Source: Rhodobacter sp.
Lineage (GTDB): Bacteria > Pseudomonadota > Alphaproteobacteria > Rhodobacterales > Rhodobacteraceae
NCBI GenBank assembly: GCA_027484145.1
Contig: JAIXUH010000002.1
Coordinates: 806,001 to 870,000, forward strand
Direction of reading: 5' to 3'
DNA length: 64,000 nt
Position numbers and translations under genes: made by a program. The notes under the pieces were generated by a model, which was not told the DNA's origin, did not search any database, and saw only the letters and a list, made by a program, of their open reading frames with translations. Positions 49,002 through 62,605 of the stretch are shown piece after piece; the stretch's first letter is position 1; the number at the start of each line of letters is the position of its first letter.

Positions 49002-49025
49002 TTCCAATATTCCGGAAATATGGAA
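49002..49025. promoter_or_regulatory. Candidate ArsR operator overlapping the start codon
   Basis: TTCCAatatTCCGGAaataTGGAA near-palindrome centred on CC|GG, 9 of 12 positions paired; ATG at 49020. Confidence 0.6.
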
Positions 49026-49883
49026 TCGTTCAACCCTCCCTCCCCTGCGCCCGCCGCAGACACCGCCATCGCCGCCTTCGCCGCGCTGGCCCATCCGGAC
49101 CGTCTGGCCGTCTTTCGGCTCCTGATGCGCTTTGCCCCGCAAGGCGCCCGCCCCACCGAAATCGCCCTTGCCCTGAATCTGCGGCCAAACACGCTGTCGC
49201 ATCACCTCTCCGACCTTTCCGCGGCTGGCCTGGTGCAGGCCGAACGGCAGGGCCGCTCGCTCTACTACAGCGTCAATCTTGACCGGACCGAGGGGCTGAT
49301 CGGCTACCTCGCCCTTGATGTCGGCCGTGCCCGGCCCGACCTTCTTTCCCCCCTGCGCCTTACGCAAAAGGACTCCGCCATGCGCGATACTGATTTCGAC
49401 GTGCTCTTCATCTGCACCGGAAACTCCGCCCGCTCCATCTTTGCCGAAGCTCTGCTGCGCGACCTTGGCCGTGGCAAGTTTCAGGCCTTCTCCGCCGGCA
49501 CCCGCGCGGGCACCAGCCTGCACCCCTTCGCGCTCGACGTGCTGCAGCGCAACGGGCACGCCATCACCGGCCTGCGCGCCAAACATATGTCCGAGTTTCA
49601 GCAGCCCGGTTCCATCGTGATGGACTTCGTCTTTACCGTCTGCGACACGGCGGCGTCCGAGGAATGCCCGCCATGGCCCGGCCAGCCCATCACCGGCCAT
49701 TGGGGCCTGCCCGACCCGGTCAAGGCCACCGGCACCGATGCGGAAAAGGCCCTCGTCTTCGCCCAGACCTATGCCGCCCTGCGCCGCCGCATCTCGGCCT
49801 TCGTCGCCCTGCCCTTCGAAAGCCTCAGCCGCCTGTCGCTGCAATCGCACATCGACGACATCAGCCGGGGGGCCCACCCATGA
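49020..49883 (+). CDS. ArsR-type HTH regulator fused to low-MW phosphatase-type arsenate reductase
   Basis: [67 protein letters not shown] (HTH), then [24 protein letters not shown]...[36 protein letters not shown]. Confidence 0.93.
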
Positions 49884-50890
49884 CCCGCATCGCCCTCAAC
49901 GGTCTTGGCCGCATCGGCAAACTGGCGCTGCGAAACCTTGTCGATGCCGGCGCGGGCGGCCAGATCGTCCTTATCAACGATCCCGCAGGCACCGCCGAAC
50001 AACATGCGCTCCTGATGGAGTTCGACTCGGTGCACGGCCGCTGGCCGGCCCGCATCAGCCATGACGACGGCAGCCTCACCCTCAATGACAGCCACATGGC
50101 GCTGACCCAGACCCGCCGGATCGAGGATCTGCCGCTGGCCGCCATGGGCATCGATCTGGTGATCGACTGCACCGGCGTGTTCAAGACCGCAGAAAAGGTG
50201 AAACCTTACTTCGACGCCGGCGTGAAAAAGGTGGTCGTCTCCGCCCCGGTCAAGGACGACAGCGCCCTCAACCTCGTCTATGGCATCAACCACCATCTCT
50301 ATGACGCGGCCCGGCACCATCTGATCACTGCCGCCAGCTGCACCACCAATTGCCTCGCCCCCGTGGTCAAGGTCATCCACGAAAGCCTTGGCATCCGGCA
50401 TGGCTCCATCACCACGATCCATGACGTGACCAATACCCAGACCATCGTCGACCGCCCTGCCAAGGACATGCGCCGCGCCCGTTCGGCCCTGACCAACCTC
50501 ATCCCCACCTCGACCGGCAGCGCCACCGCCATCACGCTGATCTACCCCGAACTCAAGGGCCGCCTGAACGGCCACGCCGTCCGAGTGCCCCTCCTGAACG
50601 CCTCGCTCACCGATTGCGTGTTCGAGGTCGAGCGCCCGACCACCGTCGAAGAGGTCAATGCCCTGTTCAAGGCCGCCGCCGAAGGCCCGCTTCTGGGCAT
50701 CCTCGGCTATGAAACCCGCGCCCTCGTCTCCTCCGATTACACCAATGATCCGCGCTCAAGCATCATCGATGCGCAAAGCACCATGGTCATCAACGGCACG
50801 CAGGTGAAGATCTACGCCTGGTATGACAATGAATGGGGCTATGCCTGCCGTCTGGCCGATATCGCCCGCATGGTCGCGGCCAAGCTTTAA
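49880..50890 (+). CDS. ArsJ-associated glyceraldehyde-3-phosphate dehydrogenase
   Basis: [21 protein letters not shown]...[43 protein letters not shown]...[18 protein letters not shown]; between arsR-arsC and arsJ. Confidence 0.93.
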
Positions 50891-50952
50891 CCCCCAAACC
50901 CACCACTCCCACAAAACACCACCACAAGACCCCTTCCCGCTTCCCCTTCTCC

Positions 50953-50995
50953 AAATATCCTCGGGGGTCCGGGGGCAGACAGCCCCCGGCCCGCC
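50953..50995. repeat. Intergenic GC-rich hairpin repeat, copy B
   Basis: AAATATCCTCGGGGGTCCGGGGGCAGACAGCCCCCGGCCCG; same consensus as copy A. Confidence 0.55.
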
Positions 50996-51021
50996 CCCGC
51001 CGCCTTTCCGGAGTCTCCGCC

Positions 51022-52269
51022 ATGCCTTCGCAGCCCCTTCGCGCCTATGCTGCCGTCACGGCAGCCTACTGGGCCTTCATGCTGTCGGATGGCGCGCTCC
51101 GGATGCTGGTCCTGTTGCACTTCAACGCGCTTGGCTTCACGCCGCTGCAACTGGCTTGGCTGTTCCTGCTCTATGAGGTGGCGGGCATCGTCACCAACCT
51201 TGCCGCAGGCTGGATCGCACAGCGCTTCGGGCTGGCAGCCACGCTTTATGCCGGGCTTGTCCTGCAGATTGCGGCCCTTCTGGCCCTGACGCAGCTTGAT
51301 CCGGGCTGGGGCATCGCGGCCTCGGTCGGCTTTGTCATGGCCGTGCAGGGTGTGTCGGGGGTGGCCAAGGATCTGGCCAAGATGGCCTCGAAATCCGCCG
51401 TCAAGCGTCTGGCCCCGCAGGGCGATGGCACCCTGTTCCGCTGGGTGGCGCTGCTGACCGGGTCCAAGAATGCGGTCAAGGGTCTGGGTTTCTTTCTGGG
51501 CGCGGTCTTTTTGGCTCTGGCCGGGTTCACCGCCGCCATCTGGGGCATGGCGCTGGTGCTGGCGGTGATCCTGATTGCCACCCTTTTGTTCCTGCCCAAG
51601 GGCCTGCCCACCGGCGAAAAGGGCGCAAAGTTCGCGGGCTGGCGCTCGCCCGATGCGCGCGTGAACCAGTTGTCGCTGGCGCGGCTGTTCCTGTTCGGTG
51701 CGCGCGACGTCTGGTTCGTGGTGGGCGTGCCGATCTATTTCCAGATGGTGCTGTCCGATGGCACGCCCGAAGGGCGGCGCTGGGCCTTCTTCCTGATCGG
51801 CGGGTTTCTGGCGGTCTGGATCATCGCTTATGGCGCGGTGCAAGCCGCCGCGCCCCGCCTGTTGCGCGCCAAGGGCGAAGATCTGCGCGCCACCATCGCG
51901 CAGGCCATCCGCTGGGCGGGCTATCTGGTGCCGCTGCCCTTTGCCTTGGCCGCCGCCGCATGGGCCTCGGGTGAACCCTCGGTCTGGCTGACGGGCGCGC
52001 TGGTCGCGGGCCTGATGGCCTTCGGCTTTGTCTTTGCCATCAATTCTTCGGTCCACTCCTATCTGATCCTCGCCTTTTCGGCGGCCGACCGTGTCACGCG
52101 GGATGTCGGGTTCTATTACATGTCCAATGCGGCGGGGCGGCTTCTGGGCACGCTTCTGTCGGGCCTCAGCTATCAGGTGGGCGGGCTGCCCCTCTGCCTT
52201 GCCACGGCCGGAACCCTTGCCGCCCTCAGCTTCTGGGCCGTGGCACGGCTCAGACCGCCGTCCCTCTGA
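51022..52269 (+). CDS. arsJ: Organoarsenical (1-arseno-3-phosphoglycerate) effux MFS transporter
   Basis: MPSQPLRAYAAVTAAYWAFMLSDGALRMLVLLHFNALGFTPLQLAWLFLLYEVAGIVTNLAAGWIAQRFGL; ars context. Confidence 0.93.
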   Translation: MPSQPLRAYAAVTAAYWAFMLSDGALRMLVLLHFNALGFTPLQLAWLFLLYEVAGIVTNLAAGWIAQRFGLAATLYAGLVLQIAALLALTQLDPGWGIAASVGFVMAVQGVSGVAKDLAKMASKSAVKRLAPQGDGTLFRWVALLTGSKNAVKGLGFFLGAVFLALAGFTAAIWGMALVLAVILIATLLFLPKGLPTGEKGAKFAGWRSPDARVNQLSLARLFLFGARDVWFVVGVPIYFQMVLSDGTPEGRRWAFFLIGGFLAVWIIAYGAVQAAAPRLLRAKGEDLRATIAQAIRWAGYLVPLPFALAAAAWASGEPSVWLTGALVAGLMAFGFVFAINSSVHSYLILAFSAADRVTRDVGFYYMSNAAGRLLGTLLSGLSYQVGGLPLCLATAGTLAALSFWAVARLRPPSL

Positions 52270-52346
52270 TCTTCCCCCCCAACAGGCTGCGGTTGCGCCG
52301 CCACCTTGCGCCAGATTTTGAGGCCTGCCCCGAAATCTTCGCCGCT

Positions 52347-52368
52347 TTGCAGCAAATCTGTCATCAAA
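52347..52368 (+). promoter_or_regulatory. Weak candidate Pho box upstream of the PlcP-like gene
   Basis: TTGCAGCAAATCTGTCATCAAA; one strong CTGTCAT half-site. Confidence 0.35.
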
Positions 52369-52424
52369 CCGAATCCGTCGCAGACCTAAGAACGCGCAAC
52401 CGCAATCCATGACGGAGACGGGCT

Positions 52425-53246
52425 GTGCCGCATACCACCGCCACCCGCACGGCGCTGCATCACCACCGCAGCCTGTTCATGTCAGACCTGCATCTGGGCT
52501 CGCTGGGCTGCCGCGCCGATCTGATCCTCGGCTTTCTGCGCGAACATCAGGCGGACACCTACTTTCTGGTCGGCGACATCCTTGATCTGTGGCACCCGCT
52601 TGTGCCGCACTGGACCGCCGATCATCAGGCCATCGTCGATCATTTCGCCGCGCGTCAGGCCGCAGGCGCCCGCGTCGTCTATCTGACTGGCAATCACGAC
52701 CCCGAACCGCAATCCGCCCCCGCCCCGGTGCAGATCGCGGCCAGCCCTGTGCGCGACGTGCTGCACACAACCGCGGCTGGCCGCACCCTTTTGGTCATGC
52801 ATGGCGATCAGTGCGACAACCGCGTGCTGCGCGGCCATACCCTGACCCGCATCGGCAGCCGCATCGACTTTGTCCTGCGCTGGATGGACCGGCGGCTGAC
52901 CAGCCTGCGCCGCCGCGCGCGGGGTGAACAGCGCACCCTGATCGAATGGTCGCTGTCGCGCATCAACATCCTGATGTATCTGGGCCGCGCCCATGAACGC
53001 CGCCTGATCGCCGTGGCCAAGGGCCGGGGCGTCGATGGCGTGGTCTGCGGCCATTTCCACATGGCCGAATTGCACAATGACCATGGCTTGACCTATGCCA
53101 ATTGCGGCGACTGGGTCGACAGCTTTACCGCCCTGGCCGAAGACCCCGACGGCGCCCTGCGCCTTGTCGGCGGGCGCAAGGCCCTTGGCGCCCCCTCACT
53201 TCCCGCCCCCGCCACGGGTCTGGGCGGCACCTTGGTGGGCACATGA
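52425..53246 (+). CDS. Calcineurin-like metallophosphoesterase (UDP-2,3-diacylglucosamine diphosphatase-like / PlcP-like)
   Basis: LFMSDLHLGSLGCRADLILGFLREHQADTYFLVGDILDLWHPLVPHW...LTGNHDPE...LVMHGDQCDN...GVVCGHFHMAELHNDHGLTYANCGDWVDSFTALAE. Confidence 0.88.
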   Translation: MPHTTATRTALHHHRSLFMSDLHLGSLGCRADLILGFLREHQADTYFLVGDILDLWHPLVPHWTADHQAIVDHFAARQAAGARVVYLTGNHDPEPQSAPAPVQIAASPVRDVLHTTAAGRTLLVMHGDQCDNRVLRGHTLTRIGSRIDFVLRWMDRRLTSLRRRARGEQRTLIEWSLSRINILMYLGRAHERRLIAVAKGRGVDGVVCGHFHMAELHNDHGLTYANCGDWVDSFTALAEDPDGALRLVGGRKALGAPSLPAPATGLGGTLVGT

Positions 53247-54373
53247 CAGGGACGGCCCTTGCCATCCTTGCGGCCCTGCTGCTGGCGATTCACCTCGCCA
53301 GCATTGGTCTTTATCTGTATCGCCTGCGCCGCCCGACGCGCCCCGCAGGGCTGATCGGCCAACCCTTTGTCACCCTGCTGCGCCCAGTCTGCGGCCTTGA
53401 CCCGTTTGACGCGGAAACGCTGCGCAGCAGCTTTCACCTCGATTATCCGGGGTATGAGGTCATCTTCTGCGTCGACAGCGCCGATGACCCGGTGGTCCGC
53501 CTTGTGAACCGGCTGATCGCCGAATACCCGCGGGTGCCGGCACGCCTCCTGATCGGTCGCGACACGGTTTCGGGCAACCCCAAGCTGAACAATCTGGTCA
53601 AGGGCTGGCACGCCGCGCGGGCCGACTGGGTCTGCATGGCCGACAGCAACCTGCTGTTGCCCCGCGATTATCTGACCCGCATCGTCGCCGCTTGGGGCCC
53701 AAAGACCGGGCTGGTGTCCTCGCCCCCCATCGGCATCCGCCCCCAAGGCTTTGGCGGCCATCTGGAATGCGCGATCCTGAACAGCAATCAGGCGCGCCTG
53801 CAGGCCGCAGTCGATACGCTTGGCTTTGGCTTTGCCCAAGGCAAGACCCTGTTCTGGAACAAGGCGCTTTTGAACCGTGCCGGGGGCATCGCCGCCCTTG
53901 GCCGCCATCTGGCCGAAGATGTGACCGCCACCCGCATCATCCGCCGCTTCGGCCTGCAGATCACCCTGATCGTGCCGCCCTTTGCCCAACCCATCGGGCA
54001 CCGCACCCCCCGTCAGGTCTGGGATCGCCACCTGCGGTGGAGCCGGGTGCGCCGCGACGGCTTTTCCCTGCTGTTTCTGGCCGAAGTGTTCAACGGCGCC
54101 GTCGTGCCCGCCCTTGCCTGCGCCGGGGCGGTGGCCATGTCCGGTGCCCCGCCGCTGTGGCTGCCCGCCTATCTGGCGCTGTGGTATGTGGCCGAGGCCG
54201 CGCTGATGCGCTTTGCCAAATGGCCCTCTGGCCTTGCCGACATCGCGCTGTTGCCTCTGCGCGACCTGATGCTGGTGGCCATTTGGATCACCACCTTTGC
54301 CGGGCGCGGGTTTGAATGGCGGGGCACCGCCATGGCCCCTGACAAACCACCCGTCATAGAACCCGCCGAATAG
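53243..54373 (+). CDS. Ceramide glucosyltransferase-like glycosyltransferase (GT21-like)
   Basis: VTLLRPVCGLDPFDAETLRSSFHLDYPGYEVIFCVDSADDPVVRLVNRLIAEYPRVPARLLIGRDTVSGNPKLNNLVKGWHAARADWVCMADSNLLLPRDYL. Confidence 0.87.
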   Translation: MTGTALAILAALLLAIHLASIGLYLYRLRRPTRPAGLIGQPFVTLLRPVCGLDPFDAETLRSSFHLDYPGYEVIFCVDSADDPVVRLVNRLIAEYPRVPARLLIGRDTVSGNPKLNNLVKGWHAARADWVCMADSNLLLPRDYLTRIVAAWGPKTGLVSSPPIGIRPQGFGGHLECAILNSNQARLQAAVDTLGFGFAQGKTLFWNKALLNRAGGIAALGRHLAEDVTATRIIRRFGLQITLIVPPFAQPIGHRTPRQVWDRHLRWSRVRRDGFSLLFLAEVFNGAVVPALACAGAVAMSGAPPLWLPAYLALWYVAEAALMRFAKWPSGLADIALLPLRDLMLVAIWITTFAGRGFEWRGTAMAPDKPPVIEPAE

Positions 54374-54384
54374 CCCGCAGCCCC

Positions 54385-54960
54385 ATGATCGAAACGCCTG
54401 AACTGATTTCACTGATCCGGACATGGGGCCTTGGCATGCTGGCACCGCTTGCGCTGCTGGAAGGCCCCATGGTCAGCGTTGTGGCGGGCTATGCGGTCAG
54501 TCTGGGCGCACTGCCCCTGCGCGGGGTGCTGATTACGCTGGTGCTGGCCGATCTGGCGGGCGACGCCATCCTTTACGCCATCGGGCGCTTTGGCGCGGGC
54601 CGCATCCCGCCGCATTGGCTGCGCCGGGCCGGGGTCACCCGGCGGCACTTGGCGCGTCTGACCCTTGGCTTTCGCAGCCATGACCTGCGGCTTTTGATGC
54701 TGGGCAAACTGACCCATGCCGCAGGCTTTGCCGTCCTCTTGGCAGCGGGGGCCGCGCGCATGCCATTTGCGCGCTTCCTCTTGGCCAACCTTGTGCTGAC
54801 CATCCCCAAATCGGCGGCCTTTGTCATGATCGGCTGGGTCTTCGGCCTTGCCCTGCCCTTGGGCGACGGCTGGCTTTGGCCTGCTCTGACCCTTGCCGCT
54901 ATCGCCTTGTTCCTGCTGTCAATCCTGCCTTTGTTCCGGCCAAGGAGGGCCACCCCATGA
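54385..54960 (+). CDS. DedA family / SNARE-associated membrane protein
   Basis: 191 aa multi-TM; ALLEGPMVSVVAGYAVSLGALPLRGVLITLVLADLAGDAILYAIGRFGAGRI. Confidence 0.75.
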   Translation: MIETPELISLIRTWGLGMLAPLALLEGPMVSVVAGYAVSLGALPLRGVLITLVLADLAGDAILYAIGRFGAGRIPPHWLRRAGVTRRHLARLTLGFRSHDLRLLMLGKLTHAAGFAVLLAAGAARMPFARFLLANLVLTIPKSAAFVMIGWVFGLALPLGDGWLWPALTLAAIALFLLSILPLFRPRRATP

Positions 54961-55709
54961 CCCACCGGCGTTTCGCCTGCCTGATCCCCGCCCATAATGA
55001 GGTGTCGCGCTTGCCGGGCGTGCTGCGCGCCGTGCTGCGCCACCCGATGCTGGACGAGGTGATCGTGATTGATGACGGATCAACCGACGGCACCGGGGAT
55101 CTGGCCCGCACCATGGGCGCGCGGGTCATCCGGTCCGAGGTGAACCGGGGCAAGACCCATGCCCTGACCTTGGGGATCGAGGCGACAACCGCCAGCCACC
55201 TTGTGCTGATCGACGCCGATCTGCAGGGCTTGACCCCGCGCGACATCACCCGCCTGATCCTGCCCGTCGCCGGGTCCGAGGCGATGGCCTCGCTGTCGCT
55301 GCGCGGCAATGCTCCGGCGCTGTGGCGGCTGATCGGGGTTGATTACATCACGGGCGAGCGGGTGATTCCCCGCGCCCTTGTCGCCGACCAGACCCACCGC
55401 CTGCGTGCACTTGCCCGCTTCGGGTTCGAGGTGTTCCTGAACCGTCACCTGATCGCCGCCGACCAGCCCATTGCCGTGGTGCACTGGCCCGGCGTGACCA
55501 GCCCCGCCAAGGTAGCAAAACGCGGTCTGTGGCATGGCTTGCGCGCCGATCTGGCCATGCTGGGCGATATCTTCGCCACCATCACACCATGGATGGCCCT
55601 GCAACAGGTCACGCGTCTGCGCCGTCACGCCTATCGCCCCGGCGGGCGCCACGCGGCCCGCGCCACCGAAGACCCGATCCTTCACGCCCGCCGTGGTCCC
55701 TGGCCATAG
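54957..55709 (+). CDS. Glycosyltransferase family 2
   Basis: RRFACLIPAHNEVSRLPGVLRAVLRHPMLDEVIVIDDGSTDGTGDLARTMGARVIRSEVNRGKTHALTLGIEATTASHLVLIDADLQGL. Confidence 0.9.
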   Translation: MTHRRFACLIPAHNEVSRLPGVLRAVLRHPMLDEVIVIDDGSTDGTGDLARTMGARVIRSEVNRGKTHALTLGIEATTASHLVLIDADLQGLTPRDITRLILPVAGSEAMASLSLRGNAPALWRLIGVDYITGERVIPRALVADQTHRLRALARFGFEVFLNRHLIAADQPIAVVHWPGVTSPAKVAKRGLWHGLRADLAMLGDIFATITPWMALQQVTRLRRHAYRPGGRHAARATEDPILHARRGPWP

Positions 55710-55752
55710 GTCTGGGTCCATAAGTCTGGGGCGAGCGTTCCGAAAGCCGGGG

Positions 55753-55794
55753 CGTCACGCAAATTTCACATGATTGCGACGTGTCTGTCATGCA
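55753..55794 (+). promoter_or_regulatory. Candidate tandem Pho boxes upstream of phnC
   Basis: CGTCACGCAAATTTCACATGATTGCGACGTGTCTGTCATGCAG; TCAC/TCAC/CGAC/TCAT cores at 55755, 55766, 55777, 55788 (exact 11-bp spacing). Confidence 0.65.
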
Positions 55795-55833: not shown

Positions 55834-56655
55834 GTGCTGGAAGTTAAGAATGTGACCCGCATGTTCGGGCAAAAGGCAGCTGTTGACCGGATTTCCTTCT
55901 CGGTGGATCGCCCGGCCTTTGTCGGCATCATCGGGCGTTCGGGCGCGGGCAAATCCACCTTTCTGCGGATGATGAACCGTCTGACCGATGCGTCATCGGG
56001 CGAAATCCTCGTTGATGGCCGCAATATTCTGGCACTGCAAGGAGCGCAAAAGCGGGCATGGCAAAGCCAGTGCGCCATGATTTTCCAGCAGTTCAACCTT
56101 GTGCCGCGCATGGATGTCGCCTCGAACGTGCTGCACGGCATCCTGAACCGCCGCTCTACCCTGCAGACCATGTTCAACCTGTGGTCGCGCGACGATATCC
56201 TGAAAGCCATTGATATCCTTGATCGTCTGGGCATCGCCGAACAGGCCCCCAAACGGGCCGAGGCGCTGTCAGGCGGCCAGCAGCAGCGCGTCGCCATTGC
56301 CCGCGCGCTGATGCAGGACCCCAAGATCATTCTGGCCGACGAACCCATCGCCAGCCTTGACCCGATGAACGCGCAGATCGTCATGGATGCCCTGCGCCGC
56401 ATCAACGTCGAAGACGGCCGCATGGTCGTGGCCAACCTGCACACGCTGGATACCGCGCGCCGCTACTGCGACCGCGTCATTGGCATGCGCGACGGCCGCA
56501 TCGTGTTCGACGGCAGCCCGGACCAGCTGTCAACCGGCGTTGCGCGCGACATCTACGGCGCCGACGCTTCGTTCAACGAAGCCGCCACCTCAACCTCGAT
56601 CGATGCCGCAGGCTCGCAGGCGGACAAGGTCTACGCCAGCACCATGCTGGCCTGA
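55834..56655 (+). CDS. phnC: Phosphonate ABC transporter ATP-binding protein
   Basis: [55 protein letters not shown]...[33 protein letters not shown]. Confidence 0.95.
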
Positions 56656-62587: not shown

Positions 62588-62605
62588 CTGTCATCAAAGT
62601 TTCAC
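62588..62605 (+). promoter_or_regulatory. Candidate Pho box in phnF-phnG intergenic region
   Basis: CTGTCATCAAAGTTTCAC, two 7-mers with 4-bp spacer. Confidence 0.6.

Follow-up and report, generated by a model that had tools for sequence, protein, structure and literature searches.

What is a compact run of four predicted lipid genes doing directly ahead of a phosphonate transporter in a Rhodobacter genome? The run lies in the window, the whole stretch of 64,000 nucleotides of contig JAIXUH010000002.1 that was analysed, where four open reading frames are packed on the + strand at 52425-55709 with gaps of -4, +11 and -4 bp and are followed, 124 bp after the end of gt2, by the start of phnC at 55834. 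The sequence-only reading had placed four tight genes here with phnC about 125 bp further on, and both observations were recovered when the reading frames were found anew. The answer favoured below, with a probability of about 0.8, is that these genes form a PhoB-controlled operon that would swap phospholipids for phosphorus-free glycolipids.

52425-53246, + strand: plcP, putative PlcP-type phospholipase C (metallophosphoesterase), 273 aa, GTG start with GGAG ahead
53243-54373, + strand: gt21, putative GT21 lipid glycosyltransferase, Pgt-like (Glyco_transf_21)
54385-54960, + strand: dedA, VTT-domain (DedA) membrane protein
54957-55709, + strand: gt2, GT-A glycosyltransferase without predicted transmembrane segments, lineage-specific
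55834-56655, + strand: phnC, phosphonate transporter neighbour, outside the cassette (TIGR02315, 315 bits against a cut-off of 266)

The four products match Pfam models for Metallophos (38 bits, plcP), Glyco_transf_21 (171), VTT/DedA (46) and Glycos_transf_2 (72); phnD and two phnE genes beyond phnC were assigned by gene order and similarity. On the other side of plcP, 49020-52269 holds an ArsR-ArsC fusion, an ArsJ-associated GAPDH and ArsJ, ending 155 bp before it, an arrangement present only in this genome among the loci compared. Arsenate uses phosphate transporters for entry, so an arsenic-phosphate stress island is plausible.

The phosphoesterase and the first glycosyltransferase

By its sequence the first gene product is PlcP and not LpxH, because its scores of 31 and 25 bits against the LpxH equivalog models (NCBIfam) fall far under their cut-offs of 134 and 190, because of its position in the tree, and because LpxI is found in the same genome. 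In that tree, of 93 rows, the window protein lies inside a clade of gt21-linked PlcPs, beside the btaA-btaB-linked and agt-linked clades, and the branch leading to E. coli LpxH is very long, at 4.6 changes per site; the tree was made by a quick method and has a long root branch, and the separation of PlcP from LpxH is independent of its fine branching. The sequence-only reading had called for this phylogeny and named clustering with true LpxH as the outcome that would speak against it; the protein lies far from LpxH, and its identification as PlcP stands. The metal motifs SDxHLG, GDxxD, GNHD, HGD and GHxH are present in it, their key residues being invariant in 16 rows, and it is predicted to act as a phospholipase C on PE and PC. 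Across the compared loci, PlcP is linked to genes for phosphorus-free lipids that use diacylglycerol (DAG).

The second product carries both the GT21 domain and the D,D,D,(Q/R)xxRW motif, keeps the motifs FCVDSADD, DSN, AED and RxxRW, and has three hydrophobic segments. Stand-alone rhizobial GT21 proteins share 42-49% identity with it and HpnI, which stands on its own branch, 28%; by way of these rhizobial relatives we infer that it belongs to the alphaproteobacterial Pgt-like clade and not with HpnI. A hopanoid role of the HpnI kind was considered and rejected, the HpnI model scoring under its cut-off and the genome holding no second strong GT21. Pgt of A. tumefaciens and M. loti is classed in GT21 (PMC8231724), and in phosphate-starved Agrobacterium and Mesorhizobium these enzymes produce di- and triglycosyl-DAG; the A. 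tumefaciens enzyme favours DAG as acceptor over ceramide, and a Pho box is predicted in the promoter of its gene (PMC3972451). Membership of GT21, a predicted phosphate-starvation role and a predicted preference for DAG are the points of likeness, with the shared clade drawn from the rhizobial relatives. For about 6 kb around the rhizobial-type GT21 genes inspected (two S. fredii, Shinella, Methylobacterium) there is no plcP, dedA or gt2, which sets them apart from the window's.

How much of this is new? The sequence-only reading had looked to the GT21 as the source of a new product, and this part falls, because both Pgt glycolipids (PMC3972451) and the placing of plcP just ahead of glycosyltransferase genes, the characterised Pgt among them (described in 2016; PMC4796936), were already published. 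In types 3 and 5 of Sebastian et al. (PMC4796936), plcP is followed at once by genes for putative glycosyltransferases, including one known to produce di- and triglycosyl-DAG; unlike the cassette described here, no DedA protein or fixed gt2 is named in the main text of that study. The basic recipe of plcP with a glycosyltransferase is known, and what is new is the fixed DedA and GT2 module and its distribution in Rhodobacterales. No report of a DedA protein and a second glycosyltransferase alongside the plcP-gt21 recipe was found in the literature, and no paper with both plcP and DedA was found by a search that covers subscription literature poorly and so counts as weak evidence.

Spread of the cassette and exchange of its parts

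The genes plcP, gt21, dedA and gt2 form a conserved cassette. Among 121 near genomes that were screened, 37 had a PlcP relative, and in all 16 same-family loci with this PlcP type (the window genome counted) plcP, gt21 and gt2 follow one another in order, with dedA between them in 15. Over 298 genomes of the family, the PlcP type occurs in 28, the GT2 in 28 and the DedA in 27, and PlcP type and GT2 occur together in 27 (p ~5e-36); by the listed coordinates, the two genes lie no more than about 2 kb apart on one contig and strand in 26 of these 27 genomes, and the 27th pair is split over contigs. Family PlcPs were divided by score into 28 of this type (>280 bits) and 21 others (<250 bits), and the GT2 was never found with the other 21 in those 298 genomes. 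Nor was a strong GT2 match seen outside the family among 385 genomes across the class. The DedA and second glycosyltransferase, which the sequence-only reading had singled out as the distinctive parts, are therefore real, conserved in the cassette loci and the new element.

In a collection of named genomes this PlcP type was found at 33 loci (L116-L148), almost all of them from Rhodobacterales; gt21 comes next in 32, dedA is undetected in four loci that keep gt2, and L146 has gt21 alone. Since dedA is absent from several cassettes (L051, L117, L118, L124, L135 and that of a Pannonibacter plasmid), it is not strictly required. Copies on plasmids of Fuscovulum, Gemmobacter and Pannonibacter (the last being the one without dedA), together with a host in Hyphomicrobiales, Pleomorphomonas oryzae, indicate that the module probably moves. 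Two further loci deserve a remark. On a conjugative plasmid of Thioclava nitratireducens (NZ_CP019439.1, L239), the cassette is apparently decayed, with plcP and dedA split over frames and transposase genes nearby, and a metagenome-assembled record titled Exiguobacterium profundum (L129), probably mislabelled, bears this Rhodobacterales cassette.

Natural exchanges within the module bear on its chemistry. In genome G232 (L209), gt21, dedA and gt2 are intact, no plcP was found, and a gene for a VTT-PAP2-LssY fusion (L209:5638-7725) takes its place, ending 6 bp before gt21; dedA, lost in a few lineages, is thus paired in this genome with an upstream fusion of DedA and PAP2. PAP2 phosphatases can yield DAG from phosphatidic acid, and some act on other lipid phosphates. 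A Loktanella metagenome-assembled genome (L125) has a cassette-type PlcP followed by btaA-btaB, whose products make betaine lipid from DAG, and Cereibacter changlensis (L132) carries plcP-gt21-dedA-gt2-btaA-btaB in one run. With the source of DAG exchanged between PlcP and the PAP2 fusion, and its user between the gt21 module and btaA-btaB, the swaps in these three loci point to DAG as the common intermediate. Other PlcP types adjoin Agt (motifs GRVAxEKN and FPSxTDTFG in 23 of 47) or btaA-btaB, all of them DAG users. In plcP-agt of SAR11 and Methylosinus and plcP-btaA-btaB of Phaeobacter MED193, PlcP likewise feeds DAG to the next enzyme; unlike in the cassette, the user is the GT4 enzyme Agt or betaine-lipid synthesis, and the PlcPs fall in other clades. 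No BtaA and no close Agt were found in the Rhodobacter genome, so the cassette is the only recognised DAG-using route to phosphorus-free lipids found in it. The lipid-remodelling role proposed from sequence is in this way sustained by the identity of PlcP, the conservation of the cassette and the swaps of DAG source and user.

The promoter and the phosphonate neighbour

Four features bear on phosphate control.

52338-52374, + strand: conserved 37-bp promoter element upstream of plcP, 30.2 bits with the relatives' matrix
52358-52368, + strand: CTGTCATCAAA, a Pho-box half-site plus spacer; the second half-site, CCGAATC, is degenerate
55752-55791, + strand: four degenerate Pho half-sites before phnC, in 11-bp steps
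62588-62605, + strand: Pho box upstream of a phn operon, CTGTCATCAAAGTTTCAC, from Pho-box searches

The matrix for the 37-bp element was built from seven relatives with the window left out, and across the 64 kb its top site is the one upstream of plcP, the next best reaching 9.9 bits. The exact 11-mer CTGTCATCAAA occurs in the window only in this element and at 62588 (0.02 occurrences expected), and the genome-wide Pho-box search also recovers, as a positive control, the apparent pstS promoter. Generic Pho-box scans were not above chance in the window, where the specific element alone stood out, and were near background upstream of plcP in most relatives; the 37-bp element itself fades in more distant named loci. 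Pho boxes have also been predicted in plcP clusters (PMC4796936). The phosphate-starvation link is thus upheld at the level of a putative Pho-type promoter, by the element and the core that it shares with the phn Pho box, and PhoB control of the plcP operon is likely. Nothing matching the left half of the element was found at pstS or phnG, and a different regulator could bind there. A PhaR-like reading of the GCAGCAAA half was considered and not adopted; of the other one-mismatch sites in the genome, going by the reading frames, one falls between two genes that resemble purF and cvpA, and a second is close to an apparent respiratory-chain gene.

Does the phosphonate transporter belong to the same machine? 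The adjacency noted by the sequence-only reading is real in this genome and is no general rule across the cassette loci. Besides this genome, it was seen in a single congener and in a few loci of Gemmobacter or Cereibacter: phnCDEE is adjacent in the window and in L050, convergent in L120 and L121, and nearby in L132. In L120 and L121 (Gemmobacter lutimaris and G. caeni), phnCDEE and a phn hexapeptide gene run convergent to gt2, an independent arrangement. A Pfam tally of the genes flanking the named cassettes gave no recurrent phosphate gene. Because the adjacency is confined to few loci, phnCDEE is to be seen as part of a common phosphate-stress neighbourhood outside the lipid machinery, and its membership of the cassette was rejected. 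The degenerate half-sites before phnC comprise two 3-mismatch Pho-box matches 22 bp apart, a quality near chance level over the window; as a run of its own, they suggest that plcP and phnC probably share their regulation without being joined in a single transcript.

Competing readings and the roles of DedA and GT2

Several other functions for the cassette have to be weighed against remodelling. Were the first gene LpxH, the cluster would serve lipid A or envelope synthesis, and database pipelines do label such proteins UDP-2,3-diacylglucosamine diphosphatase; the PDB relatives of PlcP are LpxH proteins too, though weak ones at about 50 bits. Model scores, LpxI and the tree contradict that identity, and an essential lipid A step would forbid the presence of this type in just 28 of 298 family genomes, so this reading is scarcely credible. 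Nearly as improbable is an operon that partners the adjacent phosphonate transporter, for instance by cleaving phosphonolipids as a source of phosphonate: the proximity of phnCDEE in the loci named above would suit it, but most cassette loci have no adjoining phnCDE, and phnC has separate half-sites upstream. A true ceramide or hopanoid glycosyltransferase, with a glycosphingolipid or modified hopanoid as its product, seems improbable to a lesser degree. Ceramide glucosyltransferase is the best solved relative of the GT21 (186 bits), and phosphate-starved Caulobacter produces a glycosphingolipid, yet by enzymes treated there as GT4 (PMC6445935); the distance to HpnI, the preference of Pgt for DAG (PMC3972451) and the exchange of DAG sources and users around the module speak against this reading.

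The last two genes leave more room. The DedA product passes the VTT gathering score (46.4 against 33.9 bits) and has five hydrophobic segments; no solved relative of it was found. The structure model of GT2 (mean confidence 88) resembles glucosyl-3-phosphoglycerate synthases, at a TM of about 0.65. Could these two proteins work apart from the lipid enzymes? PlcP and GT21 would then make the glycolipid, and GT2, as a polyprenyl-phosphate sugar enzyme, and DedA, through undecaprenyl phosphate recycling, would serve an envelope glycan under phosphate stress. Known DedA proteins flip undecaprenyl phosphate (PMC12893004), and there are weak matches of the DedA to the NCBIfam UptA model (39 bits against a cut-off of 250) and of GT2 to models of polyprenyl-phosphate sugar synthases. 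But no membrane segments are predicted in GT2, whose model comes nearest to glucosyl-3-phosphoglycerate synthase, the cassette has no GT-C partner, and gt2 is retained where dedA is lost, which together make this division of labour unlikely, if less so than the readings above.

The preferred reading, a switch from phospholipids to glycolipids, would proceed as follows. At the inner membrane, PlcP would strip phospholipids of their phosphate head group, leaving DAG, on which GT21 would place one or more hexoses from a UDP-sugar, as the Agrobacterium and Mesorhizobium Pgt enzymes do. For GT2 the likeliest role is to attach a further sugar or a different one, and for DedA, a possible lipid-moving protein, it is to help DAG or the glycolipid to cross or equilibrate between leaflets. 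PetA, the B. subtilis PE transporter of the DedA family, is a parallel in that a DedA protein handles a membrane lipid; as described through PMC12893004, on which the likeness is drawn, it belongs to another organism, acts on another lipid and carries no link to phosphate or PlcP. The enzyme activities, sugars, lipid products and PhoB binding proposed here, like the roles of DedA and GT2, are predictions from sequence. The fuller version, with DedA as a dedicated carrier or scramblase for DAG or glycolipid in phosphate starvation and GT2 building a head group beyond that of GT21, is put forward tentatively, at somewhat less than even odds.

These assignments correct database names, under which the PlcP type passes for a lipid A enzyme and the GT21 for a ceramide glucosyltransferase. 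For the spread of surrogate glycolipids across the leaflets in phosphate-starved bacteria, a dedA gene that stands between two glycosyltransferase genes offers a concrete candidate. The cassette is found in cultured genera, among them Gemmobacter, Thioclava, Pararhodobacter and Cereibacter. If the proposed roles of DedA and GT2 are true, Rhodobacterales would have a phosphorus-free glycolipid module of their own with lipid transport built in.
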